DNA of 64,000 nt from Schizochytrium sp. TIO01 (taxonomy: Eukaryota; Sar; Bigyra; Thraustochytrida; Thraustochytriidae), in assembly GCA_004764695.1 (NCBI GenBank), contig SMSO01000014.1, positions 1,749,148-1,813,147 on the forward strand, written 5' to 3'. Below the pieces are notes generated by a model, which was not told the DNA's origin, searched no databases, and saw nothing but the letters and a program-made list of their open reading frames with translations. The position numbers and the translations under genes were made by a program. This document shows positions 16,101 to 50,333 of the stretch, one piece after another. Each line of letters starts with the position of its first letter. The first letter of the stretch is position 1.

Positions 16101-16747
16101 CAGATCCTGCAACGAACCTTTCGTCATATCCTGTCAAAGCTCTTCCCCTTTCGCACATTACTACTTATGAGCAAGCTGTGGCCTACCTTGAGGAGCCTTT
16201 ATCTCTCGAGCCACCTAACGAAACTGAAATCGCCAAGGAAATGTTGTCAAAGGCAGACTTAAAGTTGTTAAAGCAAAATGAAAAGGTCGCGCAGAAAGCT
16301 GCTGCGCAAAAGGCTGCTGCCCAGAAGAAGATTGAGCAAGATGAGAAGAAACGCCAAGAACAAGCTCTTCTGGCTGATGGTATTGTGGACATCACAACAA
16401 GTTCCACAGGTTCGCCGAAGAGGTCTCAAGCTACTGCACCACTTGCATCTACGCCGGGCTCGAAAAAGGATGGCCAGACAGAGTTGTTCCCAGAGATCTT
16501 CATGTCTGTGCTAGTAACAAATGTGCAAGGCTCAGATCTCATGCTGAAGAAGCTTACGCAGCTTGTCCAGGAAGAAATCGACAAGACACTGATGAAAGCA
16601 TACGTGGAAAACGATTTCAAGGGTGATAAGGGTAAACCACCAACCCAAACCTGCATCAAGGCAACAATCCAGGAGGTCGCTAAAAAGCCGAAGCGAGCTA
16701 GCTGGCAAGTCGAGCCCGATGTCCTTGCAAAGTACGCCGCTAAGTAA
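13193..16747 (+). CDS. CHAF1A: Chromatin assembly factor 1 large subunit (CAF-1 p150/CHAF1A)
   Basis: 1184 residues from ATG at 13193. CAF-1 deposits H3-H4 behind replication forks and docks on PCNA. Visible parts in order: a PCNA-binding PIP-like motif (KSIMSFFQKR, 61-70); very acidic Ser/Glu/Asp stretches (about 160-330); a conserved helical middle region of unknown role; a KER coiled coil of Lys/Glu/Arg repeats (about 680-740); a second PIP-like motif (GVPLTNFF, 741-748); the ED/p60-binding block (LLHFGENRRPPYFGTF, about 840-860), followed by DYDIDSDLEWQEDPEDAESL, nearly the human DYEVDSDEEWEEE; and a C-terminal winged-helix-like segment (about 1095-1184). The order matches animal and yeast orthologues. 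The poly-Glu tract comes from a GAGGAA repeat at about 14107-14150. The protein is nuclear by inference. Confidence 0.95.
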   Translation: MFAKRMTTPTKKKEATEDEVDLTGDQASTKSPGKSKIGDISQIKSPAATKDSTPNAKKPAKSIMSFFQKRTPGQPTNSNTNQKRVASAVIVSKDKSADATNPNKRAKLAEQSNAKEELENKVTDPEETIREDPEDKPSKSTRSDFKTRSSRRLRVTVQEHKKEAMHEDSDSEFEHDDVIERPKDSESDSESESGSGSDGWLVGDDEEEDHEENESTVDPDNKDSSADKKVSESKNKDDVVVVVDMEDANSNDIINDNAEEEDSSASEGMEVDDNESSANESDANDDEDDEDDVDDDDDDENEDGDEEEEEEEEEEEEEENNEKDINSDDKVKKPYRGRPKRVRSHLLAPKVDMSDIAVTNLANCAYRGILEAKKKGEIIQEARESYVKMEPEKRFTLKEANIQLAYMSDFTKKKNDTERRWWLKEEFANLVEKELRKSVDEKMDDYIRELLKAKRAAKRAKSKSKRKSDSDSEIGCKKARKDSDSAGTTAAAAAKPPPPADLTEDDDPRIGTHKGHFESWLADARKIIGESCVTDEEMPQKLPLDKTPEDFTDDATQKLLACMIQGRCETLELLAEHIAKQLCTENSTDLQDRILLLAERKAHGVKDQRAIAKSDSNPDALWRWEVVNQALLPEDCQKTLTDNRRRMFHFSRRIGAVSRLLKSLRKNHNEIKETRIAKDLELVEKYLREDEVARQRDAEKQERVAAREEEKKRKELEREQQKRVREEAKAQEKAKLERKKGVPLTNFFSVKAQSASTSSTNANGAASPAKKDVASEDDERARMAAKIDEALQRPEEALVLTDWVKRLVAKRPRATSPSPLPKELQNDPVAIAKQSRKKLLHFGENRRPPYFGTFRKRSAHVTARRPFAMDESLDYDIDSDLEWQEDPEDAESLGGSDAASENDKDLDYQDGWLMRDEDVVYASDAMDNDEYEDPATSGTHEKTQPARGARRYAVGIVYDRERIEAADDGTDPATNLSSYPVKALPLSHITTYEQAVAYLEEPLSLEPPNETEIAKEMLSKADLKLLKQNEKVAQKAAAQKAAAQKKIEQDEKKRQEQALLADGIVDITTSSTGSPKRSQATAPLASTPGSKKDGQTELFPEIFMSVLVTNVQGSDLMLKKLTQLVQEEIDKTLMKAYVENDFKGDKGKPPTQTCIKATIQEVAKKPKRASWQVEPDVLAKYAAK

Positions 16748-17255: not shown

Positions 17256-20200
17256 TTAGGCTTCGCAATACTGAGATGAACGCAAATAGCGCCCAAGAAA
17301 GTTCTTATCAAGGTAGTCTAGAGCAAGTCTAAATCCTTCGTCAAACAAATCTGACGAGACGCGGTCCTCCAAAATGGCGCTTTCTACACAGTCACGCAGT
17401 TCATCCGGCACGTCAATCGTGTCTAGCCCATCTAGAACAATGAATTGTTTGTTAACTGACTCAGCAAGATCCTTGCTGGGCTTTTTCTTGAAGTCAATAA
17501 CAGCAAGAGCGAACTCAAGCCAGGAGGTGTCTATTGAAGGCTGTTGCACTATAAAGGTTTCAATCTGCTTGTGATTCGACCGATCCGCAAGAAGTTCTTC
17601 CAAAAAGCTCCTTCGCATTACAGCAGATTGTTGTTCCGAAACGCCTCCCCTGTCAAGGGTTTTATAGCGCATCAATCGAATCGTGCCAGGCGTTCGACCA
17701 GGACGATAAGAAGAGGCTGTCCATCCAGATATGCCGGTGTCCTGGTGTATCTCATCACTAGAGTCACTCAAGTCTCCCTCATCCTCTTTGTCTTCACTTT
17801 CATGAATATGAGCAAAATTATCCAAAGAATTCTCAGACATATCACGTCGACTGTTTAGATGTTTGGATCTGTCAAATGACGCAACACCACCAATCGTGTA
17901 TTCATCAAAGTTAGCATCACTTGAATCTCGTCCTGTATAATTCGGACTCGTGAGCACCGGCGAAGCTGCCCGGGAATGAGTTTCGATAGTGGGAGGTTGA
18001 TGGATATTGCTGCCAAGTTTCATTTCCTCGACACCTTGTAATTCAAGTGCAAGTCCACTTTCTAGAGAGGCCCGCCGAGTTCCACGAAATCCGCTATCCG
18101 AAGCCCTTCGCCATTGCACTGTTGCGCCGCCCACAGGCGACCCCGGTCTCAACATGAATTGAGACAAGAGTTCTTCAAGAGCGCTAGCATCGGATTCAAT
18201 CAGTGCTGCCATGTTTGCTAATGCATCCTCCCTATACATGTCCAACGACAAAGTCAAATTTCGTGTAGAAAACCCTTCTGAATGGAAAGGTGGAGCAGCA
18301 GGAAGAGACCCAGTTGTGTCTGACTGAGCAGACGATACTGACGAAGACGGCACAACTCGAGAAGCAGAATCCTCAGGCTTCAAACATAGGATTGAAGCAT
18401 CATGTGCTACCTGCAGCAGCTCTCGCACGACTTTTCGCATCGCCTTAGGTTTACTCGCAATTTCAACTGCTGTGCCCATTCGTATCAGAAGTAGAAGCGA
18501 AACGTATGTTGCGGGTGCTGTGCGTAGCATACAGGTCACGATTCGTAACACTGCTGTTAGGTATGTATCGGAGTGGGAAGTGCACGTTGTGCGTTTGATT
18601 TGGCGGAGGCAGGCCGTAGTGAAGCCTAACGCGAAAAAGTTCCGCTCCTTTGTAGTCCATTAAAGCAACACATGTAGATTGCAGCAGTTGTTCATCCGTA
18701 GGACGAAGGATGATAGCTCTTAATGAGTCTTGAATTTCTGCAGGTAGGTTCAGCTTGCTTATTGTTTCCTCAATCAAAACCCCGCGCGCTAAACCTCCCA
18801 TCGTAACAATAGGCAAAAGCACACATAGGAGTTCCATCCGCAAAAGACCGCAACAAAACAAGCGAGCACTCAATGAAAGTAAGTCATTTGGATCTTCATC
18901 ATCAGTTTCCATCTCGCTGTTGCCGAAGACCTCGTCCTGCTCTTCAAATAAAACGAGTTCACTGGTGATCTGGTCTTGAAGCTTCATTTCAAGAGCATCA
19001 ATGCACACGTTTTCTTCATCGAGCGTTTCAGGCAACGAATGCAGCAATAGCTTTTGACAAAGTTTCTCGATTTGCTTATTCTGTGCATTGGTAGCATAAA
19101 TATTCAGAATAAATTTGCAAAGAGTGGGTGAAATTTGCACAGCTGTCAGCTGAGAGATGCAAAACAGGGTCCGCTCAAGTAGGTCGGGTGACTTGTTATA
19201 CATTGCTTGGTGGCTCATACGTAGTATACCTAAAATTTCGATCCATGAAGCGACAGCTTCATCTACTTCTGCGAAGCCCCGAACAAGGTAAAGTGGACCA
19301 CTTATTTTGGTGCGAAGTATGGCATACACAGAGAGGCAACGTTCCATCAAAGATGGCTTCCAAAGCATTTGCTGTTGATAGAGGCCCAGCGCGTTTAGTA
19401 AGAGGCATTGACACCATAAATGCAACAAATCTCCATCCGGTGCACAAATGGTCAAAAGCTCAACCATCGCAGAGACTACTTCAGAAAGTTCCTGTTTTGT
19501 ATATTCAAGTGGGCTTGCTTCAGCCAATACCAGCAGTCGTTCTGTTGATGGACCTGTGAGATGGGCAGGAAGTGTGACAGCAAGCATAGGATCTGCAGCA
19601 GCATCTCGAGAGTGTTTTCGAATAAGTCGCTCATGGATTAGGGCGTGCAATAACTGCGTTATACAAGCTGAGGCTGCCCCACGAGTATCACGGGTCGATG
19701 TTCGCGGGGTACGTTGGTTCAGGCCCACGATGGAGCAGAGACTAAAAGTAAGCATTTGAGGAAATGCCATAGCACAGAGTTTGCGGTTTCCTGTAGCACA
19801 TTGGTTAAGTGCTTGCAAGACGCAACGTTGACTTTGCAAAAGTGTCATCAAGTTTTGTTCGCGTTCTGGGTTGTGCGATAAATGTCCTATCGGGTCTGCA
19901 TTTTGAGTAAGAGCGAGTTGAATCCACTCCTGTAAAATGCGAGGCCGCTGCGACGATGGGGAGGAGGTTGGGCCTGCAAAAAGTCCGCGAACTACATCTG
20001 AAAGATTGACACGGTAGAGTACACCAAGAACTAGGTTGTTCAGAATGATATTAGGAGAGGCAGCAAAGACTTCAGGTGCAATAGCAGTCAGGAAAAAGGA
20101 GGCAATCTCGCGGTGCACTGGAAGTCCCTGAGGTGAGCTGCTTTCAAGAATATGTGCAAGAAGAAAGTCAACTACGGTTGTGGCATGGTTTTGACAAAGA

Positions 20201-23200
20201 GCACGCCAAAGTGGCAAAAGCATATCAAGTGCATCTCGCCCATCCCAAACCAAAACTTTCGTACTTCCCATGGCTCGCTTTTCGTTTTCCACAACCTTTA
20301 AGACGTCGAGAATAGCGGTCCAGATTTCCTCCAAGTTAAAGTAAGATTTTTGTGCACGACGCATATCTTTTTGTACACTCTGTCGCATTTGTAGTTCCAT
20401 GGTTCCATGAGCAGCCCTACGAGATCCATGTGAGTCATGAGGTACTTGTACACGAATATCATCGACCTCAGCCCCGCCCCGCTGTGAGCCTCGAGCACTA
20501 TTGCTTCGAGATTTACGTGTGCGGACAAGGTGAGGTGGGGTTTCTGGCACAAAGTCTGGGTCTTGTGGAGCAGTGAAGGTAGATGTAGTACCACAAACCC
20601 GGGTCGAAGGACTCTGAGCAAATGCAATGCACACCTGGATTGCGTGGCGCATTAGTTTGGCTTTATACAAAGCAGGTAGCCGCTGGCACAGGTGGCTTAG
20701 GAGGCTTGCGCCAATACCTGAGCAACGGTCTGCTAGGATAATCGAGGCTTGTTCTGCTGCTTGTTCAATCGTTTTGGAATCCGACGCCCAAGTTTGCTGC
20801 CCTAAAGTACTAGCACTATGTAGCTCATATGGGAGAGCGCTACCACGTGCATTTCCAGTTTCAAGCCTGGCCCAAGAATCAGAGCGCTCAACAACATCAA
20901 GGATACCGAACGCTCTTGACCGGAAGCCGGGTCGTTCGTGGCTTGAGGCAAGCACCAGGGCAGCAAATGCCAGCAATGTGATTGCACTTGGCTCCAGCGG
21001 TCGGACCATAGCATGCTCCGAACCACGGAAAAGCCAGGCATTGATCGCATCTGAAAATGCAGCAAAAATTGCGTCAGCATGACTTTGACCAAGCGACTGT
21101 TTCTGAATTTCCTCAAACCATCTTTCAATGTAAGGGCCAAATGTGCCTCCTCCGGCAGCTTCGACGTCCCCAACATGCCAATGAGCCACCAGATAGTTTC
21201 TCAGCAATGGTGCTATTAGCTTCAACGATTTCGTGCACTCTTCGTCATAATAGAACCAAGCCCACAGCATTTCATCAGGTCGTGGTGCCACAGTTCCCAG
21301 AGATGTCGGGCCTAAGCAAAGCATTTGCGCGCCGACCTGGGTGGCAAGCTCGCGAATCATACGAAAGTTGGCTTCTGAAATAGGCTGCCGATCACCTTGA
21401 GCAAAGCTCCTCCCCGAAACATTCACGTCTGTCGCTCCAGAGCGGTTATGAGAGTTTGAAGTAGGAGTAGAACCATCAAGGCTGGTACGCGGAGGATTAG
21501 AGACTGACTGTACAGCGAAGATTTTGACGTCATCAAAGCCAACAATCGATTGCATAAGTTTCCAAATGCGCCGTCGCTCTGCACGCAACCACACTTGGTC
21601 AGCTCGTTGCACCACCTGAGGCATCTCAATTTCAGAAGGGAAACTTGATCGAAGAGTTTTTGCGCTCTGCAGTGCAAGTTTGACAAACTCCTGAGTCACA
21701 GTCCATTCTGAAGAGCGAAGACGCTCAGATTGTGCAACATGAGACATGTAATCAAAAACCATTCGCAAGGCTTGTTCCCAGCCAGGAAGTTGCGCATGAC
21801 GAGTTGCACTTGTAAGCAGAATCCGCAATGAAGAGCAGCATACTTGCTCAACCGTACCAGGGTCACCGTCAATGTGCTGAGGTGTGGAATTATCATTCGC
21901 TCGATTTCGCCTAAATTTTCCAAACTTGGGTCTTTCTTCATTAACTGTGGCTCGCGCAAGCCCTGAGCCAGTTGTCAAGCGTGTCTGTCGCCAAGACAAA
22001 CATAGTGATATAGCACGAGAAACGCACTTGGGATGAAAGCTCCGTCCTATAATATCGATGACGATACGCCGCAAAGCAATTTGTTCCTGGGAAGTGGGAC
22101 GAATTCGGATGGCTGCGTCCCACAAATCATGAAGAAGATTTTCAGTATCATTCTCCATTTCTCCGGGCCAATCAACAGAGTCTGGCTCGATTTTCAGTGG
22201 GGATCTATCCAATTCCTTACTTGTTCCGCTGAGCCCGAGCACGGTTGCCACAGCAGATTTACGTAAGACGGCTTCAAAGAACCAAATCTGATCATGATCA
22301 ATATGAAATGCTGAAAGTTTGTTGAGCCACTCCAGCAGGATTACAGTGGATTGATGAAGAAGTTCATAAAGATCGGGAAATTCAACCAGCTCTCTAGTAA
22401 TCTTAACAAGCTCATCTGCCCACTGGTCAGACCGCCCAGAACCACATCGAGGATCAAGTCCATCAACAGGCACACCAGTGGCACGGTACCACATGAACAA
22501 TTCATCCCGACTTACCAAGGGTGCTTCCTTCAGAGCGATGTAATCGTACGCCCCTTCAAGTGGAGCAGTGCTTCCTTTGAAAAGCGTATCAAGTGGGACC
22601 GCTCCACGTAAGACAGGAATACGAGGGGCGGCCCCTTCTCCCATGCTACCATGGCTATAGGTAGAAGCAGTAGATAGCGTTGGAATGATTTGATTTCCAC
22701 CAAGAGCAGGCATTGTCTGGGATCCAGTCTGAGGAAGCTGATTGGAGTGAATATGGTGACGCAGGCTATCTGCAGATAAAGGGCTACCCCTGGTATTTCC
22801 ATCAGCAGTGGCGCTTCGTTCATGGTGGTGATGAGGCTGCAAGTGTTGTTGATGCAATGTCGGGTGAGCCAGGGACTGTCCATTCATCGGTGAAGATGTA
22901 GATGCGGTGGGTGAACTGCGGTGGTTTACTTTAAGAGGCTGAGCGTCATCAGCGGTACGACGACGATGCAATTCTGTATCTGATGACACGGCTGCACAAC
23001 CGCATGATGCTTTTAAAGCACATTGGAAGGAGAATGGTTCATGTTTGCAGAATACTCGAGTGAGGCGTTTACACGCAGTTTTGAATTGCGGCCATAACTG
23101 TTGAATAGATTCAATAACTTCTTGAGCATGCATTCGGACACTTGTGCAAGGAAAGCACATGAGAGCAATGCTGAGAGTAAGTAAAGGCTCCCCTCCAACA

Positions 23201-25899
23201 TCAAGAAGTTCTGGCATTTTGTTCAGCTCTTCGTTGGTTTTGCAAGAGCGGAGATGCAGCCAAAGGCGCAAAAGTAACGTGAGTTGGCGAAGGTATGTCA
23301 GTACAACACGCGTACAGGTTGGTGCACGGCGTACAGAGCCTCGAATTTCCCGTGCAAGTTTTAGAAGGACACGAATGCGAATGTTGTCATCCGGTGCAGT
23401 ACCTACAATTCTCTGCAATGCATGCGACATAGCAGTTGCAATAAACCAATCTGCGTGTAGAAGTAGAGTCACGTCAGGCAGCGGTGCTTCGCCAGACGAA
23501 GGGCGCCCCTGAACTGGTGAGCATGACAACAAAGGAAAAATATAAATGAGCTCACGGAACACATCGAGCGCAGGATTTGATCGTTTTTTGAAAAAAGCAG
23601 ATCGAAGTCTCATTGTTTGAGCAATCTGCAATTCTGCGCCATACTTGTCGGTAAGGTTCCGCGCTCGAAAGGCAACTTCATTGCCGCCTTCAAACACATC
23701 AGAAGTGTTGAGAAGATGTTGAAGCTCTAGTACCAGTCCATTGGACGTAAATATATAAGTATCGAAAGATTGGCTTTTAGTAGGGTCTGCCCAAGCAAAT
23801 GGGTAGCCACGGTGGTCACCCATTGGATCATGCAAACTTTGAGTGTCGTCGCCAGAACTGCTGAAACCCATACAGCCATCCCACAACAAGGTAGGGACTA
23901 AAGGGTATTCTGACTGCCCCATTGCTTCGAGACCTAAGGCATGTTGCAAAGAGGACATCATACCTGTGATTGTGCGCACCGAAGCTTTTAATATGTCTTT
24001 GAGAGCTGCAAGATTGGGATCTATCTGGCCATGGTGAAGACAAAATGCAGTCTCCCGGAAGACACTGGTCCCTGGGCCAAGAATGTCCCACAAAGCACGA
24101 ATACCCACGGTTGCGCGATTTGCGGCTGAAGATGAGCAACGCGCCAAGTCGTCAGGAAGTTGTAATAGAGAAGGAAAAGCCTTATCACGGAAAATAGTGA
24201 GATCATGAGCTGCAAGCTGAAGAAGGATGTGTTTGCAAACGACGAGATTCTTCGGCAAAGCTGGCATGCTGTGCTGTTGAGCATGAGATATTGAAGGGGC
24301 CTTACTGAAGGATGATGTTGAGCCATAAGATGCAACTGAAACCACAGAGCTTTGGCTGGTACGGTTTCCGCTCATGAAAAGTGACCCCACATTACCTGTG
24401 TCTACCTCAATGGTATTAACAGGAGATGACGAAGTGTTTACTGTTGGGGGTGCACTATTTGCGAGATTATAAGAAGATGAGCCACTGAGAGAAGTAAGTG
24501 CCTTTGATTTTGAGCGCTCAAACACCTCCATATAAATTGATTCAAGAGCACGGCGGTTTAAAGTTGTTACATATGTAAAAGCACTATGCGACATACGAAA
24601 CCGTGTTTGCATAGGCACATAGTTCTCAAAAGCATCAAAGCCAGTTGCAGGGCGCGCAAAGCGATGGTTACGTAAAGATCGTAGAATAATCTCCAACGAA
24701 TGTGTCACCTTTCGTGGTTCCGAGAGGTGTCGCAAAACTCTTTTGGAGAAAAATGATGCATAATTTGACTCATGAAAGTCGCGAGGCGCATGAATCAAAA
24801 TCGTGAGCATTAAGGAAAGAGCCGCGGCCTTCAACTCTTCAATTTTAGCCAATTGTTCTGCAAGTTTAAAGAGACGATTTGCAACCACGTCATTAAAGAC
24901 AGATTTCCAGTTTGCATCTCGCTCAAGGAGAGGCTGGAAATTAATACGTTCCAAAATAGGTTCGAAAGCAAGAAGCATGACGAGACGCGACGCTTTCTCT
25001 GTTTTTGGTTGTGCCAACTGGTCCACAAGTAGAGCAAGTACCTCTCGAGCTACTTTTGAATTAGTGAGGGTCAAATCGACAAATTGCCATACTAGAAATG
25101 ATGGTCGCAAATTAAAAATGTGGGTGATTAGACTTGGTTTCCCTTTCACCGCAAGACCAATCAGACTTGCCCATGAAACTTGAGCTTGAGCAATTATACG
25201 ACTCATAATATCTCGTGGAACTTGCTCTCGGCCAGAGCCAGCTGGTGGCTTAAGCGAGCAGTGCGCTAAGGCAAGCTCCTCAAGTTTAGTCCAATCCCGA
25301 CTCATTGCTGCTTCATTGCCACCAGCAGCATCATAGCGTAACAAATGATTCAAAACGTCACCAGCACATCTTGACCATAGCACTTCTACTAAACGGTTGT
25401 TTCTCACTGAAATACCTGGAAATTTGTCTTGGGCAGAAAATGGCAACTCTGCCCATGCGAGAACTGCAGCGAGTAAGCCTTCGAACATTGGCCGAGGAAG
25501 GGCAAGCCAAGAACGCAGGCTTGAAACAAAGAAAGGGCATTTGCGAGGATAGTCTTCCCAAAGTGTCTGCATTAAGAATGAGTCCGGATGACCAGTAGAC
25601 ATATCTGGCATTCCACCAGAACTGTCATCAGAGGCATTGATAGAATCTAATTGTGCAATCTTCTGCTCGATACCCACAGCAAGATTTACTACGAAATCTT
25701 CAAGAAAAAACCACCCTTCGATTGCATTTACACTACTCTGACCACCTGACACATGGCGGGTTGAATCAGAATTTGTTGGTGTTGAAGCTCCAGAAGAAAG
25801 ACCTGGAAACGTTGCGAATCCTGTCGGCGTCGCCGGCTCCGAGCCTAGCGATTTCCGCGGGAGAGAGCCCCCTGTGCTAACGCTCTGTGAGTGCGACAT
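17256..25899 (-). CDS. Giant helical-repeat protein, Furry/Mor2-like (tentative), with C-terminal RGS-like domain
   Basis: ATG at 25899 opens a frame to 18463; a second frame then runs to 17256 and seems to be the same gene after a short intron at 18470-18551 (joint ...YIPNS-T-VEIASK). The total is about 2880 residues. Most of it is alpha-helical, HEAT/ARM-like, with Ser/Thr-rich loops. The first 150 residues (WFFLEDFVVNLAVGIEQKI..., then FLMQTLWEDYPRKCPFFVSS) and the size resemble Furry/Tao3/Mor2/PAG1 scaffolds that act with NDR kinases in cell shape, but I hold that name loosely. The last 120 residues read as an RGS fold: LEFALAVIDFKK, a helix with QFIVLDG, IDVPDELRDCV, LFDEGFRLALDYLDKNFLGR and YLRSSQY. 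RGS domains speed GTP hydrolysis by G-alpha subunits. If the two frames are not spliced together, the RGS part is a separate gene. Confidence 0.8.
18470..18551 (-). other. Candidate short intron joining two frames of the giant gene
   Basis: The upstream frame stops at 18463 and the downstream frame is offset by one base. A GT (18551) to AG (18470) intron of 82 bases restores the frame. Before the AG is a pyrimidine-rich stretch with a plausible branch site (CTTCTACTTCTGATACG). A second GT at 18539 and a second AG at 18467 would also keep the frame, so the exact ends are uncertain; a one-base assembly error is the alternative. Confidence 0.5.
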
Positions 25900-26682
25900 A
25901 AGACCTACTCCGGCACCAGAAAACAAGCTGTCTGCGCGGAGCAGGATTTACTTTCCCTCAGACAGCACACCTGTGACGGCACAACTCGAGTAAACAATCC
26001 ACCTCAGACGAAGAATTCGTTAAAGCTATCGAAATCGGATTTTCAAGGTTCCCAAACCTCAATTACAAGCTTCAACCACACTCCCAAGACAACGTATTAT
26101 ATTACCAAGTCTTCGCACCCCTTCAAGATAACTTCTCTCTGCCCACGTTGAGGTAAAAGTCACGCAACAATCTGACCTTAGTCACACAAAACAGGCTTTC
26201 TCGCACGCGAGACTTCCCGAGAAAGAAACTATCAGATAATAAAAATAACCGTGAAAACAGGTGTCTCCAGATCCTCAATCGGGCCACGAAACTGAAGCCG
26301 TGGAACCGGAGCCCCTAGATCCCTCAGCTTGTTTCACCGTCCAAAAGTAATTCAAGTTTGCGTGCCAATTACTTCGATTGATCCAGCGATAATCGATCGT
26401 CCAACGAATTGATCTAGTTAACTGCTTGCTATTTTCAGCACTACCTACGCAGCAATGAATCAATGAATCAATGAACCAATCTCTCTGGAACCAGTGCAAT
26501 CCAGCCTTGACGTTCCGCAGGCAACCAACCGGCGTTCTCTGCAACACCACAACCTCAATACAAAACAGCCAAATCGCGAAGAGTCACCAGAAGCAATCAC
26601 GCCGCCAAGGAGGAATGCCACCTAGATTTATCTACTCAACAAGAAGAAAGCACTGATGCCCTTACCGTATAAACCAAAGTCT

Positions 26683-27634: not shown

Positions 27635-29008
27635 CCACATTGAGGTCGCGTTTCCCGTAGTTCTTCCATAGAGTAAAATAAGGTCGGTTTCTAAACGGCT
27701 ATATGATAACGAGAAAAGCAGGGATGATGATCATATGATGATGCCCTTGCTCTTGTCAACCTTGGTTTGTCTCGTTTGTTTTCTTGGATTCTTTGCAGCC
27801 TGGGCTGCCAGTTGCGATGGTTTTTATAGGATGGCATTTATGTGGTTTATTGGAGTAGGTTTTTATGTGATTGCATTTGATTCTTTCTTGGGGCGTGGGT
27901 GGAGTATAGATAGCTATTATGACCTGTCTGGGTCTTTACTTGCGGTTATCTTCCATCTGGAAGGAATCTGTAGTATCTGATTATGATGATATGATGCTTC
28001 GCTTTGATTGCTGATATCTGGGCAACTTTGGGGAAACATTGCAAGTCTGGGCTCATCAGCCACGGGGAACTTGGAGGGTGAATATAGAAAACTGACCCGT
28101 GGGACCGCGGCTACTGGCGAAGCCGTGCACTCAAGAATCTAATATCTTCAGCAAACAGACATATTTCATTAAACGGAAGTGTTTTCACACGTCATCCTAT
28201 TTTTTAAAGAATATCAGAATCGGTGAGAGCACCTGTGTCGAAGGGGCCTAAACAGGATAATACAAATAACGATTCCTCGATCTGTATGGTCGTGCAAAAG
28301 AAGCTTCTCGTGCGGAAATAGCGGTGGCGATAAAAATTCACCTCCAAACAAGCCATCATTGTCAAAGCTTACAGGGGTTACTTTTTTTCTTTTCGTTGCC
28401 ATTTTTTAATTTTTGCTTAGTAGCTGCCTAGTAGTAGTTAGTGCATTTCTAAAAACAGTGTGCGAGCGGGTAAGAGTTTGGGGTGTTATGGAGTGTCACC
28501 GGCAATGAAAATGGCCCATCAAACACCTTCTGCAAGAACGTTGCACTCCCCTTGCGCGACTGAGGTCTTTGCCAAAGTCGCGGTCAGGAGGCAGCCACAC
28601 AGCTTTTCTGTTACTGAGGCTGCTGTTGCAACGGAAGGCGAGAAGCTCTAGCTGCGACCCCAGGTTTTGCCTTGTGGTGGCGTTATAGCTGCAACGCGAA
28701 CTAACCTACAAGAGACCAGGCGTGCTGAGACAAGAAAGACGACACAAGAAAACAGACAAAGTGAAGAAATTTGTGGAACAGAGCACCAACAAGCTAATCC
28801 TTTGCTTCTTTTTGGCGAGTTGAGGTTAATAAGTATTGCAGAGTTGCATCTGCAGATAAAAATTGCTTGCATCGAAAGGTGGCGGAGGTGAGACACCATA
28901 CTGGTCAAGACTGGAAAAGGAAACAACAGGTGTTGGATGTTGAACGCGGTGGTTTACCAGTGACAATTAGACTCACGAGGCTTCACAGAGGATAAAATCA
29001 AAACATAA

Positions 29009-32000
29009 ATGCAGCGTCTCGGTTCCTCCGTTAAACCGGTACGTGCCCTGCTGGTCATTGATTGTCAGAATGATTTCGTCCCAAGCGAAGATGGTTCGCT
29101 TGCTGTGCCAGACGCAGAAGCTATCATCCCAGTCATTAACAAATTAAGAAGCAAGGAGTTCGACTTTGTATACCTCTGCCTAGATTGGCATCCTTATAAT
29201 CATTGCTCGTTTCGTACAAACAATCCTGGCGCAGATCTATTCGAATGTGTACATCTACCGACGACTGGAAGTGCACAGATCATGTGGCCAGATCATTGTG
29301 TGCAAGGAACCCATGGTGCAGAACTACACAAAGACCTTAAGGTTGAAGTCTCAGATATCTTTACGTATGCAGGTTGCAACCCTCAGCGAGATAGTTATTC
29401 TGTCTTCAAAGATAACGGTTCATCGGTGTTGACAGAAATGCGTGACCTACTAGAAGAAAATGGAGTGACAGAAATTTATGCTGTAGGCCTTGCTACAGAC
29501 TACTGTGTTCAATACACACTACTAGACGCAAAGTCGCTATTGCAGGGTGTTGAAGTATTTTACATCGAGGATGGATGTCGAGGTATTAGTCCGCAGGGAG
29601 TGAAAAATGCTGTTGACGCCTTCAAAAGTGAAAAGGTTCATATCATCAAGTCAGAAGGATCCCAAATTGGGAATATTCCTAATCGTAGACTTCGAATTGA
29701 TGGTACCTTAGAAATAACTAAGCGCAATGACAGAGTCGCATTGTTTGTGGAAGTGGATCGAGTCTATGAAGCTGTTATCTTTCGCACAGCGACTGGCACA
29801 GCGTGGGAAAATGATGTTGCAAATCTTGTCAGGTCTTCAATTGTAAACCAACTGTGTTCATGGAGTGGGAAGAATGTATTGCATGCCTGCTGTGAGATGG
29901 GAGATGTCGATACGCTGAGACAGGTACTCTTAATTGCTGGCAAAAGCCTGAATCTTTCAGTACGCACAAGACGGGATGAAAACGCACTCATGCTTGCTAT
30001 CCAAGGGAAAGAGCCTAAACATCGAACAAAAGTCGTCCAAACTCTTTTGGAGTACGCCGACGACAACCAACTTCGAGAGCTCATATTTAGTCAGAGTTTG
30101 CAATTCAACCTCAGTGCACTCATGTTTGCTTGTAGAGATGGTTTGCCAGAAGTTGTGGAGACACTTTTGAAGTACGATGCTAAATCTTCTTTACAACTGA
30201 GGTCCGCATTTGGTAAAACACCAATTATGTATGCTTGTATGACAAATACAACAGAACATGCCACCGTGATTGAATTATTGTTGCGTTCACAGCCAAAAGT
30301 TGAAGATCGCATTGCGCTTCTGCAAGAGACTGATAAGGAAAGGTGGAACAGTCTTCATTTTAGCGCAAAATCTGGCTGTTTTGCACGTGTAGACTGGAGT
30401 CGCGCTTTGGAAGGGTATGAAAACACTTCTCGTCTTCCTATCAATGCAAAGACTCATTCTGGAATAACTTTTCTTCACTTGGCTGCATTTAATGGGCGCT
30501 TTGAGGTCATTCGTTCACTTCTCGATAGTTGCGACCCAAACCGCAAGCGTAAACTCATGGATGCAATTTTGAAAAAGGGCCTCCGACATCGTGTAAAGGT
30601 GAATGTAAAGATCAAGGGCACTGATAACGTAGAGTTAGACTTAGCGATTCAGCGACGTCACCTGGAGTGTGCTCGTTTGCTGTTGCGCTTAGGGTGCCAC
30701 GCTGGATCATCATCACCTGAGCAAATGCAAGAGCTTCTTCATCGTCTTGTACTCATGGGTGATGTTGAGGCATGCGAGAGTATCCTTAATTTTGCTGATG
30801 AAAATCGAATTACCATTGATGATGCTCTTGTAGAGACAACACAGCGTATAGAGCATCCGGAAACTTGTACTGTTTCATTTGCCAATCGTACAGATCCAGT
30901 TGGCCAGTATCTGTATAAATGCAAAATATGCCAGACCTGTGTCTGCCTTGTCTGTAAAGATCGTTGCCATGGTCCTGGGTCATGTCGCAGTAACTATTCA
31001 AAACTCGACTTTGAACACTTTCCGGACAAGGATTGGGAGCCCTGCGGTGTTGTGGTTTCACAGTGTGATTGCAACCGTGATACGTGCTGTGCTACAGCTG
31101 CAACAGACATTCGAGAAATTGAAGGATATAGATTTATTCCCCACCCAGTCAGAACAAGTCAAGTCCGTCTCACCGCAGAGTTTTTTCGCTTATCACAATC
31201 GATTGCTCGAAACATGCATAATGTGTGGGCAAAAACCCTGAGCCTTCAAGGCTGGCGCTATGGTCGAGACAAAGATGTCGAAGAGCGTCTCCATCCTCAT
31301 CTTCTCCCGTTTGACTCATTGTCTATTGAAGGCGCAAAGTACAATATGGATATGTCTGTTGAGACACTGAAAGTTATTCTTTCACTTGGATATGAGCTTG
31401 TTCGTGAAGTAGAGGTCCCAAGCTTTGAGCGTTCACAATTATCCATTAGTACAGAACCTTCTAGCCCACCGACGTTAATGAAAGCAGTGTCATTAATGAC
31501 GCCAGGTCCAGACAAACGTAGTAGGTTGAAAATGGCAACAACTTCTGATCTTCATGCAGGTGCAGCCAAATATGCTGAATTCGCTTGGGATATCTCACGT
31601 CCAGACTGTGTACCTCTGGATACAAGTGGATTTTTAATACCGCATCAATTAGATAACCTTATTGATCGAATTGCTTCGAACTCACATGAGGTTTGGGCTA
31701 GTGAAAAGATTCGGCAGGGATGGAGGTATGCTCCAAACCGCAACATTCGTAAAGATCTGAAACTCAATGCGTCTTTAGTTCCGTACTATGTTTTAACATC
31801 AGAGGAGAAAAATCAACTCCGAGAAGGGGCTATCGAGACTATTAAAGTAATTTTGATGTCAGGATGGATTATTCGGCGACCAGAAAACTTTCATGATTCT
31901 GACGACGAAGCGACAAGCCCAGCTTCTCCAGACCCCAACATCTCACAGGGGCGCCGCGATCGCCGCTTCAGTACGGCCATGATGCCTCTACGGCGGCGTG

Positions 32001-35000
32001 ACACTACTCAACCAGCAAAAATGACACTCGCATTTCGTCAGCTGAAGCATATCCGCCGCAAACTTTTCAACCAATTTCTTTTCGCAGCGGTCCGACGTGG
32101 GCAGATCGAATCTGTGAATATTTTACTTTCCAAACGATCAAGTATGCATGTAGGGGCAAATTTGAACGCAATTGATGAGTTTGGACACACTCCATTATAT
32201 ATTGCGATCAAGCGTGGTCATGTTGCAACGGCGCAACGCCTCTTGACACTAGGGGCGAACATAGAACTCCGAGACATTAATGGGCTCACACCTCTTTCGC
32301 TTTGCGCCTATTTGGGTAACTTAAAATTGTGCCAAGTTTTGATTCAACATCAAGCCAGGATTCTTGTGTGTGATGCAATGGGATTCACCCCCCTGCACCA
32401 TGCTGCTAACCAAGGACACGTTGAGGTGTGTAAGTATATCACAGAGCGTCTCCAGCAGGAACATCAAAGCAATGATATTGTAGATTTGAACGCAGATATG
32501 GTGGACTATGCTAGCTTAGGTGGCGTAATAGAGAAAGTTTCCATGGAAGATTCATCGAGCTACCTTGATCATACCTCTCCAGCTCATTTGAAGCGGAATG
32601 CTACGACCGCCCGAGAAAGCGCCCAATCTAAATGGCGTGTGTTTCGTATCATGTTCCGTTCACGAGGATTAGGTAGTGAGCGCTCACGAGCTGCGCGAAT
32701 AATTCCTGCCGAAAATCTAACAAATTCTCAACAGCTATGGACTCCAAGCCTTGCTGCACAAGGCTCTAACGTGCAACGCATGCCAATTCACCAAGGTACA
32801 CAAGGTTCTGACTTGGGCGAGCTATCACTCAGTGATCGAGGCAATCCTGATGACGGAACCTATCATACTGATGGATTAGGTGTTGGTCCATCAAAAGCCG
32901 CAATGCAAGTAATCCAAAAACCATCCATGAGAAATTTTACACCGGATCCAACACCAGAACCTGGCATGGCACTTTCCATGTACCCCCCCATGTCCCTTGC
33001 TGTTCAGTCTGACAACATCGAGATTGTTGAGCTGTTAATAAAACATGGGTCAAACCCTATGTTGGCAGATGGCCCAGCTGATCGAAGCGCAATGCTGAGC
33101 CCTTATATTCGTGCATTGCTCAGACATATTGAAATGAGTGCCAAAGTGGAGTACCTGCAGGACCGCATTGCCAAACGTGCTCTATATGAAATGCAAAAAG
33201 CTCAAACAATGCGTAGTGCATCTCGTAGAGGTCCGAACAATGGGCAAATGCAAGAAAATGGTCACCTTGGAACAGTCCGCATTTCGATGAGTTCAATTTT
33301 ACATGGTATGGACACCTTTCGTAACGAAGGCAACGGAATGGAAAATGATCCTCCAAGTCTAGATTCAGTCGAGCCGCACCCGAAACGAAAAAATACCAAT
33401 ACTATCATGAGCCAACCCATTTCGACGCCAAAGTCAACAGCAATTATGTCAAGACCATTGTCTCTTCGCAGACGCCTTGGATTGGTAAAACGTATAGATA
33501 CGCATATAGGGAACTTGTTTGGTTTCGCAAACCAAGTCGGTGGAGCGAATGTAGCAAACGTTGGCGATGATGTGATTGCAGAAAGTGCAGATGAAGAATC
33601 TGCTGGGCGAGCAAGCTCGCAGATCAATTCTACTCGGGAGCTTGATCAACTGTTGGAAAAGGCACAGAGAGATAAAGATAGAGCTGCACAGATGGTCGAG
33701 GCGATGAGTAAGTCTTCTAAAGTAAGTGCATGGCGTCGACGAACAGCAATTAAAATGTGTGTCAGGGAGACTAGTCTCATGCTGCTTTTGATTATCTCCT
33801 TTGGCTGTTTAGTACAGCTCTCGCCAGATTACAATATGGCTGCAGAGGGTACATGGGCTATTCAACTTGAGACTTACTTTGAAAACAGTACCGCCGATGT
33901 TGACGGCCCAGATGATTTTATGGGATGGATCCGGGATGAGTTTATATCGAAAGACCTCATGCGCAGTGAAAACTATACTAGGCTTCGCAACTCAAATTTT
34001 GTATTTGGGGCAATTTCCCTCAAAATGTACGATCTGAACGCTCTTGAGTATACCACTGAGTACTATCAAAGCTCAACAAGCTCCGACTCTAAGATAGAAT
34101 CTACAAGTCTACCAAGCAACTACATGTCCCTCTTACTGCCCCAGGCTAACCCAGAAGACATGGTTACCGTTTTCGATGAAGGAACTGTAAATTGGACTAG
34201 CCCCGGCGTCTATGTGATTTCCATGGAACTCAACTTATACAATCCTTTCTACGAAGTCTATGGTATAGTTGAGGTTCAGCAAACTTCCACGTTTATTGGA
34301 CTCAGTTCACTCAGCATGGACGTTAAGCCATTTCGCCTTGAGTATGGTCGTTTCCCGCCGTCCCGAACTTTTCAGATTGCTGTATTCGTGATGGTTGTGC
34401 TCTTTACTATTACAAAGGTTCGCAGCTGGCTTCGCTCTCAGCATCGCTCCCGTCGCCGCCGGCGGGAGGAGTGGATGATTGAAATCCTTTTGATCGGAAT
34501 TTTGCTATTTGATGTTTACGTCTATGAATCTACAAAGAATGTGATAATGGACTTACGCAACAGCGTCGACGAGTATATGGATTTGACTGGTGCCCAGCGG
34601 CTTTTGGAGATCGAGAGGCGCTTTTTTGCAGTGTATTTTCTCCTTAGTGTACTTCCGCTTCTAAAAGCTACTCAGACAATTCCTTCTATTGGACCTGTAG
34701 TCGTAGCCCTGTTGAGCACCATGACAGACACAGCTGTGTTGATCTATCTGCTAGTTATTTGCACAGCTTGCTTTCTGTTGACACTAACTTTTCATGTTGG
34801 CTTCGGCATTTCAGTGACTGAGTTTTCGACCATGATATCAACATTCGAGAATCTTTTTTTAACTCCCTTTGTTGAAACTTGGAATGGCATTACTCATACC
34901 GGCCACAGTTCATATCTTGGAGCTGTTTTGTACGTGTTCTACATTCTCTTTGCAACAGTCTCACTCAATCTTCTTATCGCTATCGTTACAGATGTATATC

Positions 35001-35335
35001 CGTCAGCACGGTCTGCATCAGATCGGGAATGGGAGGAGATTATCACTGGGGGAATTGAAGACAATCTTCGCGACCTTTTACATTCGAAAAATATCTCCTC
35101 AACAGATTTACGCATCGAAACATGGAGCGAGGCTAAATTGCTGCTGGGCCGTGATGGTCGCAAGCATTGGAGCAAGACAAAAGCAGAAGAAAGTAACGAA
35201 GATCCTGCTGAGCTTGCAAAAAATGGAGCATGCACAAAATCTACCTCTGAAAAGCTTGTAGACTTATCTGAGCAAATCAAGCAACTAACATCAATTGTTG
35301 AATCTCTGCGAAGCGAAATAGTAACTTTAAAGTAA
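29009..35335 (+). CDS. Nicotinamidase-ankyrin-UBR-RyR-polycystin (TRPP-type) channel fusion
   Basis: 2108 residues in one frame from ATG at 29009. Domains: nicotinamidase/isochorismatase-like (about 11-215) with Asp18, metal ligands Asp59, His61, His96 and nucleophile Cys166, but Ala121 where the catalytic Lys should be; ankyrin repeats (about 286-588); a UBR-type zinc finger (about 617-696, ending QCDCNRDTCC); two RyR domains (about 725-800 and 876-960, each with VWA...QGWRY and a final helix ETxKVIL); more ankyrin repeats (about 1021-1149 and 1323-1351); then a six-helix polycystin-like channel with TM1 at about 1590-1604, a long extracellular loop with N-x-T sites, TM2-TM5 at about 1787-1929, a pore loop (about 1936-1960) and TM6 (about 1969-1997). 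A Leu/Ile heptad coiled coil ends the protein. It is probably a cation channel gated by ligands bound at the N-terminus; NAD-related ligands are a guess. Confidence 0.93.
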   Translation: MQRLGSSVKPVRALLVIDCQNDFVPSEDGSLAVPDAEAIIPVINKLRSKEFDFVYLCLDWHPYNHCSFRTNNPGADLFECVHLPTTGSAQIMWPDHCVQGTHGAELHKDLKVEVSDIFTYAGCNPQRDSYSVFKDNGSSVLTEMRDLLEENGVTEIYAVGLATDYCVQYTLLDAKSLLQGVEVFYIEDGCRGISPQGVKNAVDAFKSEKVHIIKSEGSQIGNIPNRRLRIDGTLEITKRNDRVALFVEVDRVYEAVIFRTATGTAWENDVANLVRSSIVNQLCSWSGKNVLHACCEMGDVDTLRQVLLIAGKSLNLSVRTRRDENALMLAIQGKEPKHRTKVVQTLLEYADDNQLRELIFSQSLQFNLSALMFACRDGLPEVVETLLKYDAKSSLQLRSAFGKTPIMYACMTNTTEHATVIELLLRSQPKVEDRIALLQETDKERWNSLHFSAKSGCFARVDWSRALEGYENTSRLPINAKTHSGITFLHLAAFNGRFEVIRSLLDSCDPNRKRKLMDAILKKGLRHRVKVNVKIKGTDNVELDLAIQRRHLECARLLLRLGCHAGSSSPEQMQELLHRLVLMGDVEACESILNFADENRITIDDALVETTQRIEHPETCTVSFANRTDPVGQYLYKCKICQTCVCLVCKDRCHGPGSCRSNYSKLDFEHFPDKDWEPCGVVVSQCDCNRDTCCATAATDIREIEGYRFIPHPVRTSQVRLTAEFFRLSQSIARNMHNVWAKTLSLQGWRYGRDKDVEERLHPHLLPFDSLSIEGAKYNMDMSVETLKVILSLGYELVREVEVPSFERSQLSISTEPSSPPTLMKAVSLMTPGPDKRSRLKMATTSDLHAGAAKYAEFAWDISRPDCVPLDTSGFLIPHQLDNLIDRIASNSHEVWASEKIRQGWRYAPNRNIRKDLKLNASLVPYYVLTSEEKNQLREGAIETIKVILMSGWIIRRPENFHDSDDEATSPASPDPNISQGRRDRRFSTAMMPLRRRDTTQPAKMTLAFRQLKHIRRKLFNQFLFAAVRRGQIESVNILLSKRSSMHVGANLNAIDEFGHTPLYIAIKRGHVATAQRLLTLGANIELRDINGLTPLSLCAYLGNLKLCQVLIQHQARILVCDAMGFTPLHHAANQGHVEVCKYITERLQQEHQSNDIVDLNADMVDYASLGGVIEKVSMEDSSSYLDHTSPAHLKRNATTARESAQSKWRVFRIMFRSRGLGSERSRAARIIPAENLTNSQQLWTPSLAAQGSNVQRMPIHQGTQGSDLGELSLSDRGNPDDGTYHTDGLGVGPSKAAMQVIQKPSMRNFTPDPTPEPGMALSMYPPMSLAVQSDNIEIVELLIKHGSNPMLADGPADRSAMLSPYIRALLRHIEMSAKVEYLQDRIAKRALYEMQKAQTMRSASRRGPNNGQMQENGHLGTVRISMSSILHGMDTFRNEGNGMENDPPSLDSVEPHPKRKNTNTIMSQPISTPKSTAIMSRPLSLRRRLGLVKRIDTHIGNLFGFANQVGGANVANVGDDVIAESADEESAGRASSQINSTRELDQLLEKAQRDKDRAAQMVEAMSKSSKVSAWRRRTAIKMCVRETSLMLLLIISFGCLVQLSPDYNMAAEGTWAIQLETYFENSTADVDGPDDFMGWIRDEFISKDLMRSENYTRLRNSNFVFGAISLKMYDLNALEYTTEYYQSSTSSDSKIESTSLPSNYMSLLLPQANPEDMVTVFDEGTVNWTSPGVYVISMELNLYNPFYEVYGIVEVQQTSTFIGLSSLSMDVKPFRLEYGRFPPSRTFQIAVFVMVVLFTITKVRSWLRSQHRSRRRRREEWMIEILLIGILLFDVYVYESTKNVIMDLRNSVDEYMDLTGAQRLLEIERRFFAVYFLLSVLPLLKATQTIPSIGPVVVALLSTMTDTAVLIYLLVICTACFLLTLTFHVGFGISVTEFSTMISTFENLFLTPFVETWNGITHTGHSSYLGAVLYVFYILFATVSLNLLIAIVTDVYPSARSASDREWEEIITGGIEDNLRDLLHSKNISSTDLRIETWSEAKLLLGRDGRKHWSKTKAEESNEDPAELAKNGACTKSTSEKLVDLSEQIKQLTSIVESLRSEIVTLK

Positions 35336-35531
35336 CATGTGTAGTTTTGTAAATGGGTATCAACCTTCAGTTTTCCCCTCAAATCAGTATCATAATTCAA
35401 GTAGATAACGTGCTCGCCGAGGAAGTCGCAAGGACTCTAATTTATTTACCTCCGCCAAGGTTGAAGCAAGTACTATAATCGGAAACTCCAGATGAATGGA
35501 AGAAATAACTTTTAATAATAGTAAAAATAAA
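35336..35531. other. Short convergent spacer
   Basis: 196 bases between the stop codons of the channel gene and of the FAM21 gene; AT-rich 3' flanks only. Confidence 0.6.
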
Positions 35532-37448
35532 TTAATGCTCTACATCAGATTCATCTGAGGAGTCGAACAAAGACTTCGTTTTAAATGCGGCCGAGCTTGC
35601 TCGGGACGCAGTTATAGGCCTATGCTCCCTTTTCAATTGCCCGGCTGACACTGAAAGAGGCAACTCTGAGTTTCCAAGATTTGATGGAAGGTCTGACAGA
35701 ACTTGGGTAGTGTTCTCTTGTACTGCTAAGACTTTTCGGGAGTTTTTCAACACTTCCGGGGAGTGGAATCCTTGTTCGTCCTCACTAGCTTCGGTATCAC
35801 TGTCAAATAAGTTTGCTAAGAGCTTCCGGCGATGAGTTGATTTCTCGTTTTGAAAAGCTGACAGTTTTGGTGCCTTAGAAGAATATGGCACATCTTGCGC
35901 ACCAGAATTGGAAGGTATCTTGCTATCAGACAACTTGGTTGGAGGAGATAAAACGTTCCTATCTGTTTGGCTATTGAGAATAGCGGTTGGTAGTTTTGCA
36001 AGACCTGCAAGTTCTTTGGGTGGAGGTATCTCCAGTGGCTTTTCTGCGATGAACGGATTTTTAGAGTTTCGAGGAAAAACATCCTGCTGTATATTTGGAG
36101 TCATATCAATGAGCATTGTGTCTTTATTGTTGGAATCCATTCCTGCTCCTGAACTTCTTGATGCCATATTAACTTGGTTCACTTGAGGAGGAATTGATGG
36201 CTTTGGCCTTTCCACTCTCGTCTCAACTGGGACATGTTCTTCTATATCATTTGGTGGCTGTTGATATTGAGATGTCGCCATAGCCAGCCCTTTGCCCTTA
36301 GGGGAGCATATTTGATCACCTTTAGAAAAAAGTTCTGTAAGAGAACTATTGATGAGTTGGCGTTTCTTATCTATTTTGCTGTCATCAGGACTAACTTCAG
36401 GTATAATTGACGATTTTTTAATGGATCCAGATACGTCAGATTTATGAGTCCCCATCATGCGTTCAAGCTCTGCAAGGTCGTCAGGTTCATCATCGATATC
36501 GTTGCTAGCATGTTTGCGGCCATCTTCGGAGCTCAAGTAGTGTCCCTCATCAGGAGTATCGACATGCAGTTTGAGGTGAAGGTTTCCCGTCGTATTTGAG
36601 TTCGGTTGTGCCAAAACATTGGGCGATGGTGAGGTAGCCACACCTTCCAGGATATTGTGAGTAGAATGCTGTTTATATTTCTTTGCCTCTCCGCCTTTGT
36701 CATCTTCTTCGTCATCAGAAAATGGGTTCATAGAAGGCTGCTGCAAGCGAGGTTTAATACCCCCCTCCATAGTTTCTTTCATGGGTTCAGGAAAGTCCTT
36801 GAGGCCCTTTTCAATAAGAGCAGCAATTTCTTCATTACTTGGACGTGAGACAAATGTGGTATCCCCAAGGCAGGCAGAAGAAGGGGATCTAGCCTGTATT
36901 AAGTGTATTTCGTCTTCGTCTTCGATGCGACTTTCGAGAAATTGGTTATAAGAGAGCAGTGTGATTCGGTTGCGTGCATCATCAAGATCAGTGGCCATTG
37001 TTTGTGCTTTCAGATCTAACTCCTGAATGCTTTGTTGCAATTTCTCTGCACGTGCTGTCATGGCATCTGAGAAGATTTGAAGATATTTGAGCAGCTCTGA
37101 CTGTTGGTTGTTTCGACTTTGGAACTTCATTGCCTCAGTAGCTTTCATTAATCTTTCGTCAGTGCCTGCATGCTTTGTGTCATCCAGATGATGTACATTT
37201 GTAGCTCCTGGTCTAGCATCGGGTGCATGTTCTGTCATATAAGACGACGAATCGGTCCTCAGTGCAGTGGCGTCAATCTCTTCACCGTATTGGGAGCTAT
37301 TGTTTCCATCATCAGGGAGTTGGTTTCGTCTCGTGCCAATTGCAAGTCGTTCTAAAAGGTCTTCACGACCTGTGAGTGGAGCGCGTTCAGTTGCATGGAC
37401 AGAGTCTTGGGCAACGTCAAAGCCCGGCATCTTGCATGCTCCTTTCAT
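35532..37448 (-). CDS. WASHC2: WASH complex subunit 2 (FAM21) homologue
   Basis: 638 residues from ATG at 37448 (an in-frame GTG lies six codons upstream; a second ATG is six codons in). FAM21 anchors the WASH actin-nucleation complex to retromer on endosomes. The amino-terminal head has the family signature: a coiled coil with LLKYLQIFSDAMTARAEKLQ (about 120-140) and then LLSYNQFLESRIEDEDE (about 165-181), which matches LSNTQFIENRVYDE of animal FAM21. The rest is a long disordered tail with acidic LFa-like retromer-binding motifs: NPFSDDEEDD, LFSKG, NPFIAEKP, LFDSDTEASEDE, and SLFDSSDESDVEH at the very end. It is shorter than human FAM21 (about 1300 residues), mainly in the tail. The gene is convergent with the channel gene. 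The call rests on the head signature and the repeated acidic motifs. Confidence 0.85.
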   Translation of the reverse strand: MKGACKMPGFDVAQDSVHATERAPLTGREDLLERLAIGTRRNQLPDDGNNSSQYGEEIDATALRTDSSSYMTEHAPDARPGATNVHHLDDTKHAGTDERLMKATEAMKFQSRNNQQSELLKYLQIFSDAMTARAEKLQQSIQELDLKAQTMATDLDDARNRITLLSYNQFLESRIEDEDEIHLIQARSPSSACLGDTTFVSRPSNEEIAALIEKGLKDFPEPMKETMEGGIKPRLQQPSMNPFSDDEEDDKGGEAKKYKQHSTHNILEGVATSPSPNVLAQPNSNTTGNLHLKLHVDTPDEGHYLSSEDGRKHASNDIDDEPDDLAELERMMGTHKSDVSGSIKKSSIIPEVSPDDSKIDKKRQLINSSLTELFSKGDQICSPKGKGLAMATSQYQQPPNDIEEHVPVETRVERPKPSIPPQVNQVNMASRSSGAGMDSNNKDTMLIDMTPNIQQDVFPRNSKNPFIAEKPLEIPPPKELAGLAKLPTAILNSQTDRNVLSPPTKLSDSKIPSNSGAQDVPYSSKAPKLSAFQNEKSTHRRKLLANLFDSDTEASEDEQGFHSPEVLKNSRKVLAVQENTTQVLSDLPSNLGNSELPLSVSAGQLKREHRPITASRASSAAFKTKSLFDSSDESDVEH

Positions 37449-49923: not shown

Positions 49924-50333
49924 GGCCAATTCATAGGTATGTTTGTTGGAATGGAAAGAAGTGAGAGCTAGCAAGCAGAATGCAAATCCCGAAGAGCCCG
50001 TGCCGCTGTGGCTGAGACTGCCAGCGGTACGCACGAGCCGACGCCTTCTTTGCGCTGCCGACTCGCTTATTCTTCCTCATTTAACTTCACCACCGGCTAA
50101 GCTCTCGCCTGCTTGCGAGATTGCTGTTAGGCTGAGCGCTTCAGCTAACTCGTGCTGTCTCTTTCCGATTTAGACGACCTTAGAGCAAGACAACGAAGTT
50201 CTGGGAGCTCTTAAATCGCGCTTGAGGCTGCCTTGGGTAAAACTGGAGAGAAGCGCAATAGACCACCTTATCTTGAGGTATATTGAGAGGTTATCGTAGC
50301 CTGAAGTTAAGATTTATTGAAGCGTTATTGAAG

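Follow-up and report, generated by a model that had tools for sequence, protein, structure and literature searches.

The window analysed here is a 64,000-nucleotide stretch of DNA (C13:1749148-1813147) in a 64.06-Mb genome of 37 contigs, and its main feature is a single gene, hereafter the fusion gene, whose protein carries in order a nicotinamidase-like domain, ankyrin repeats, a Cys/His-rich finger, two RyR domains, further ankyrin repeats and a polycystin-like pore (Table 1). The frame lies exactly where a first-pass annotation of the same DNA had placed it, with the same length of 2108 codons. An in-frame TAA is the codon directly before its ATG, and the longest stop-free stretch in 20 mononucleotide shuffles of the window was 240 codons, versus the 2108 codons of the real frame. 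The G+C content at third codon positions (GC3) runs at 0.36-0.47 along the frame, and there are no N in positions 28001-36000. A protein search of the same genome recovered a paralogue on contig C33 (1839 aa, one frame), and the global alignment of the two proteins spans them from end to end with the same domain order. Identity over aligned residues was 35% in the nicotinamidase-like domain, 37%, 42% and 43% in the successive ankyrin parts, 44% in the finger, 45% and 54% in the two RyR domains, 50% in 42 aligned residues between these domains and 40% in the channel, and only 18-23% in the other linkers and the tail. Because the paralogue aligns end to end in the same order, the fusion is older than the duplication and has been kept in both copies; judged from sequence, the gene is a real, duplicated and conserved fusion.

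The two RyR domains claimed at first pass were recovered by Pfam as two stretches (E 8.7e-46), and a profile search of the genome located five such domains: two in the fusion protein, two in the paralogue and one in a 242-aa open reading frame (ORF) on contig C30. This third RyR gene (L030 4486-5214, + strand) lies ~1 kb downstream of a 1130-aa NACHT-ankyrin ORF (84-3476, + strand). The comparison set comprised 68 bacterial loci and the repeats of animal RyR1 and RyR2, from which two trees of 105-110 columns were built, both with long branches and with a program warning of joined long branches: a larger one with 54 of the 68 bacterial rows, and a reduced one that took alternate bacterial rows and left out the paralogue, the fourth animal repeat and the long rows B_L113 and B_L118. 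Evolutionarily, the first RyR domain (R1) of the fusion protein and of the paralogue joined animal repeat 1 with support of 99/94 in the larger tree, and the fusion-protein R1 still did so in the reduced tree (97/93); RyR 1 thus groups with repeat 1 of animal ryanodine receptors, and not with bacterial RyR domains. The second domain (R2) fell among animal repeats 2 and 3, with repeat 2 in the larger tree (92/68) and repeat 3 in the reduced tree (83/41).

At six sites, R1 of the fusion protein reads H, W, L, K, H, N, and animal repeat 1 reads H, W, R/K, R, H, N, with the His/Trp/His adenine-contact residues kept in RyR 1 of both the fusion protein and the paralogue. Both proteins have the pocket His and Trp in each of their two RyR domains, and R1 also has the second His, at which site R2 has Asn just as the animal receptors do. 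The same His and Trp occur in 68 of 68 bacterial rows, a count that is circular since it follows from how the loci were searched and cut, the other four sites being independent of this. The site of Asp117 in the phage protein RyDEP is D in 67 of the 68 bacterial rows (with one gap), and N in R1 of both paralogues and in animal repeat 1. As a reference, RyR3 Repeat12 (R12) crystallised with AMP-PCP shows the adenine stacked on Trp880, salt bridges from Lys884, Arg895 and Arg1018, and closure of the clamshell (PMC12627627). The paralogue keeps two of the three basic phosphate contacts described for R12.

At the N-terminus, Pfam Isochorismatase matched residues 13-214 (E 7e-20), PDB 2wt9 matched the nicotinamidase-like domain at E 4.5e-47, and the NCBIfam nicotinamidase model PRK11609 scored 163 bits, below its cut-off of 174. 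The motifs IDCQNDF, LDWHPYNH and ATDYCV, already read at first pass, stand at residues 17-23, 58-65 and 162-167. The metal motif D-x-H ... H is complete (D59, H61, H65, H96), and the catalytic Asp-Lys-Cys triad is incomplete, with D18 and C166 kept and the Lys replaced by Ala121. At sites 18, 59, 61, 65, 96, 121 and 166 the paralogue carries H, K, H, H, E, T and A, so that of these seven only His61 and His65 are kept, yet its N-terminus scores 35.6 bits as a nicotinamidase (cut-off 174). Because Ala121 replaces the catalytic Lys, and the paralogue has also lost the Asp, the Cys and two metal ligands, the domain is probably a catalytically dead pseudoenzyme. In a computed nicotinamidase mechanism the catalytic lysine stabilises the Cys thiolate, and nicotinamide is bound to the metal through its pyridine nitrogen (PMC6271260); the K104A variant of the nicotinamidase OiNIC had 1.45% activity, measured on protein refolded from inclusion bodies for which its authors suspect improper refolding (PMC3581539). 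Loss of the lysine, together with a metal-held pyridine nitrogen, would make nicotinamide binding without turnover possible in the fusion protein, and such binding seems less likely in the paralogue.

The polycystin-like (TRPP-like) pore of the first-pass annotation was borne out by Pfam PKD_channel at residues 1788-1997 (28.7 bits, cut-off 22.4), with Ion_trans also above its threshold (26.2 bits, cut-off 25). Its six helices are visible as hydropathy peaks only, at residues 1580-1598 (S1), 1790-1808, 1823-1841, 1873-1891 (with a second, overlapping peak), 1910-1928 and 1976-1994; the same threshold gives ten peaks in the paralogue, some overlapping and one outside the channel. We take this helix layout, with an S1-S2 loop of ~190 residues, to be that of a polycystin or mucolipin channel, and the TRPP label follows from two things, the Pfam match and the long loop. 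Among the best 60 of 64 PDB matches of the pore region, bacterial 'Ion transport protein' chains came first (1.5e-4 at best), then TRPC3 (0.0012), with calcium channels lower. By these matches the pore is divergent.

Between the enzyme-like and channel ends, Pfam Ank_2 matched seven stretches (E 3.8e-49), in agreement with the ankyrin blocks described earlier. The UBR label given at first pass to the finger was not borne out: the Cys/His cluster is present, but a Pfam scan of the finger segment gave no match at E <= 1, a zf-UBR profile search of the genome (E limit 10) returned five other places and not the finger, and hhalign against four UBR boxes of the same genome gave a weak, though not nil, result (probability 17%, E 0.0015, 22 columns).

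Table 1 Features of the fusion gene, with positions counted from the first letter of the window.
Feature	Position	Strand	Basis
Whole coding frame, 2108 aa	29009..35335	+	Single open frame; paralogue P0002 likewise one frame on contig C33
Nicotinamidase-like (isochorismatase fold) domain, residues 12-215, probably catalytically dead	29042..29653	+	Pfam, NCBIfam, PDB 2wt9
Codon GCA (Ala121), catalytic lysine position	29369..29371	+	Lys in 5 of 5 nicotinamidases among the alignments listed
First ankyrin block, ~residues 285-600, approximate limits	29861..30808	+	Pfam Ank models; 37% identical to paralogue
Cys/His-rich finger, ~residues 605-694, UBR-like by eye only	30821..31090	+	Cys/His conserved in paralogue
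RyR domain 1	31133..31399	+	85.8 bits; groups with animal RyR repeat 1
RyR domain 2	31613..31876	+	80.6 bits; near animal repeats 2/3
Second ankyrin block, ~residues 1015-1165	32051..32503	+	Best Ank_2 stretch 1081-1147
Short third ankyrin-like segment, ~residues 1318-1375	32960..33133	+	Partial Ank_KRIT1 1307-1346 below cut-off; 43% identical to paralogue
Predicted S1	33746..33802	+	Hydropathy
S1-S2 loop, ~190 residues, with LYNP stretch	33806..34372	+	Sequence and hydropathy
Pore domain S2-S6	34370..35014	+	Pfam PKD_channel and Ion_trans; hydropathy peaks
Putative filter segment TPFVET, residues 1952-1957, register uncertain	34862..34879	+	TPFVES in paralogue

Functionally, we tentatively favour a TRPP-like cation channel under the control of adenine nucleotides, bound by the RyR clamshell, and perhaps also of nicotinamide, bound by the dead enzyme; the protein would then act as a sensor of NAD turnover. 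Each chain would form one subunit, in which ~1500 residues of cytosolic sensor precede the first helix. The RyR pair would fold as the animal Repeat12 clamshell and close on an adenine nucleotide, which could be ATP, ADP, or ADP-ribose in linear or cyclic form; the metal of the dead nicotinamidase would hold nicotinamide or a related pyridine that is not turned over; and the ankyrins would relay the movement to a pore that would let cations through, probably Ca2+. NAD is cleaved into a nicotinamide and an ADP-ribose part, so such a chain would register its turnover. We infer the ligand, the gating and the ion alike, and for the nicotinamide- or NAD-related ligand, which was also an inference at first pass, outside support comes by analogy from RyR modules that bind adenine nucleotides (PMC12627627) or isomers of cyclic ADP-ribose (cADPR; PMC13232231), phage RyR proteins being described in the latter as binding or cleaving 2'/3'cADPR. 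Within the genome, the 33 places that match TIR_2 (e.g. L124, L127, L128) are a possible source of the signal.

Several observations weigh against this proposal. At the RyR pair, the fusion protein keeps only one of the three basic phosphate contacts of R12 (Lys at the R897 site), with Leu at the R886 site and Ser at the R2 site where RyR1 has Arg, and the catalytic Asp117 of RyDEP is Asn. At the enzyme end, nicotinamide binding cannot be assumed for both copies, because the paralogue lost two metal ligands. At the pore, the PKD_channel match of the fusion protein is weak and that of the paralogue (17.6 bits) is below the cut-off; a genome-wide PKD_channel scan gave 21 matches, a lower bound because neither the fusion gene nor the paralogue is among them; of 12 other PKD loci compared by blastp, only L044 matched; and there was no polycystin among the best 60 of the 64 PDB matches. 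RyR domains are, moreover, intra- and intermolecular protein-contact sites in RyR1 (PMC4820453).

This last point also favours a different explanation, less likely in our view yet deserving some weight, in which the RyR pair and the dead nicotinamidase are protein-contact scaffolds and the channel is gated by ankyrin-borne force, voltage, Ca2+ or something else. The opening of NOMPC by force on its ankyrin region (PMC12539804) and the presence in the fusion protein of only one of the three phosphate-binding basic residues would both fit such scaffolds. Against them, both paralogues retain the pocket Trp in each repeat and the two His of repeat 1, and 35% identity has been kept over a fold that lost its catalytic residues.

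A more specific version of NAD sensing, which we consider unlikely, would make the protein a direct receptor-channel for NAD+ cleavage: the RyR clamshell would read the ADP-ribose product (linear or 2'/3' cyclic, from the TIR proteins of the genome), the pseudo-nicotinamidase would read nicotinamide, and by sensing both halves of NAD+ a single chain would convert TIR-type signalling directly into Ca2+ entry. Among six ORFs from the TIR_2 loci of the genome, four match TIR_2 (two with COR-A and one with ankyrins) and two do not. As an observation in its own right, 33 TIR_2 matches are a large repertoire for a protist.

It is also doubtful, and we judge it quite improbable, that the N-terminal domain is still a nicotinamidase, giving an active channel-enzyme that supplies nicotinate to NAD salvage. 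Asp18, Cys166, Asp59, His61, His65 and His96 are all kept, the genome profile search found one nicotinate phosphoribosyltransferase and no match to NAMPT_N, and poor refolding may explain why OiNIC K104A had so little activity (PMC3581539); set against this are the Ala in place of the catalytic Lys, the paralogue with only two of the seven sites, and a separate 311-aa nicotinamidase-like ORF on contig C24 (L135 1447-2382, - strand; 52.4 bits, family cut-off 174), in which the D, K, C and metal motifs can be found by eye among large inserts. This ORF and a second, isochorismatase-like one on C24 are the nicotinamidase-related ORFs besides the two channel genes. Because C24 carries the first of them, the channel domain is not the sole candidate nicotinamidase, and the idea that it is the only one in the cell was dropped. 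Finally, it is scarcely credible that two separate genes or an assembly join were misread as one frame, since the paralogue has the same order in one frame with 35-54% identity per domain (which answers, as far as DNA can, both objections raised at first pass), and the GC3 range and the lack of N point the same way.

Bacterial RyR proteins offer a wider context, and the TIR associations among them count in favour of the NAD-turnover proposal. Ten were picked from among the longer of the 68: a single one fuses RyR to TIR, and five others combine RyR with TPR-S and a guanylate-cyclase domain. The former comes from a Ruminococcaceae metagenome-assembled genome (MAG; L062 1-1563), in a frame that runs past the contig start, and the latter (L067, L069, L081, L085, L103) come from Verrucomicrobia, Armatimonadetes and Pyrinomonadaceae MAGs. 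Next to bacterial RyR genes, TIR_2 was present in 5 of 119 nearest neighbours versus at most 1 of 99 third neighbours, counts that are not independent, as they include related MAGs; the 119 were scanned from 130, leaving out 7 that lie at least 400 bases off, the 3 longest and 1 other. MS_channel_2nd, an MscS-type channel domain, was present in 4 of the same 119 neighbours (loci L055-L122). On the viral side, a RyR domain (33-42% identical) occurred in 2 of 50,697 phage records, and two scans of viral contigs found nothing related to the fusion protein. PADLOC matches of both paralogues land on the ankyrins, and the phrogs matches are families of unknown function.

Elsewhere in the window, a 2487-aa open frame (18463-25926, - strand) has no Pfam match at 1e-5, and four places are housekeeping-like by Pfam: CAF-1 subunit A (13193-16747), a mitochondrial dehydrogenase kinase (50283-51680), a ubiquitin-like protein (58618-60756) and GET4 (61029-61919). 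Contig C4 encodes a PfaA-type polyunsaturated fatty acid synthase, a 2172-aa frame above the model cut-off with repeated central matches. Such a synthase fits a thraustochytrid, and with it the labyrinthulomycete origin implied at first pass.

More broadly, the fusion puts a module related to animal Repeat12 onto a pore of another kind, in a protist and beside a second NAD-related fold. If cyclic ADP-ribose forms do bind, the protein would tie a channel to TIR-type signalling within a single chain and would offer a simple test system for RyR modules as receptors of such molecules, a question left open in PMC13232231. If the organism is a labyrinthulomycete, channels with a polycystin-like pore and tandem RyR domains would occur beyond oomycetes, contrary to what the authors of the oomycete PKDRR work state.

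Set beside known systems, the RyR pair resembles animal Repeat12 in being a tandem module whose R1 groups with repeat 1 and whose His/Trp/His/Asn sites are alike, and differs in its pore, its longer inter-repeat linker (~75 versus ~27 residues), its fewer phosphate contacts and its loosely placed repeat 2. Ryanodine receptors are marked by MIR, RIH and SPRY domains together with the ITPR/RyR pore, and the fusion protein is not one of them, as none of these four appeared in its Pfam scan at E <= 1. With phage RyDEP it shares a RyR domain with a His/Trp/His pocket, but RyDEP has the catalytic Asp and is an enzyme or sponge, not a channel (PMC13232231). The N-terminal domain is like the nicotinamidases PncA/Pnc1 (PDB 2wt9, 2h0r, 9u8m) in fold, in the Asp and Cys of the triad and in the metal motif DWHPxxH, and unlike them in the Ala that replaces the catalytic Lys and in its fusion to a channel. 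TRPM2 carries a NUDT9-H domain, and the parallel drawn with it at first pass is apt, the more so because the enzyme domain here looks dead: both are enzyme-derived, NAD-related domains on a TRP-like chain, though from different enzyme families, at opposite chain ends and on different TRP branches.

Closest to the full combination are the PKDRR of oomycetes, in which a polycystin pore is already known together with two RyR domains (PMC4820453, PMC7399828), so that the earlier claim that no described channel has this set stands only for the nicotinamidase part, which was unmatched in the literature searched. That search, which was partial and proves no absence, found no channel with a nicotinamidase domain and nothing on thraustochytrid channels, with PKDRR alone coming near. 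Their authors describe PKDRR as found only in oomycetes, with the two RyR domains following the pore, close to the C-terminus, and with filters LGA or AG(D/E); some carry extra domains that the text does not name, one from Albugo laibachii being about twice as long with N- and C-terminal domains of its own, and the parts of the two main texts covered mention no nicotinamidase (PMC4820453, PMC7399828). The fusion protein is like PKDRR in its polycystin/TRPP-type pore and two RyR domains, and unlike them in having its RyR pair (~709-960) before the pore (~1580-2002), TPFVET or, in the paralogue, TPFVES at the putative filter (register uncertain), and ankyrins and a pseudo-nicotinamidase. Because it departs from PKDRR in RyR position and filter we do not class it among them, although it may work like one; a polycystin pore with tandem RyR domains was already known, and what appears to set this protein apart is its nicotinamidase fusion and its RyR-before-pore order.

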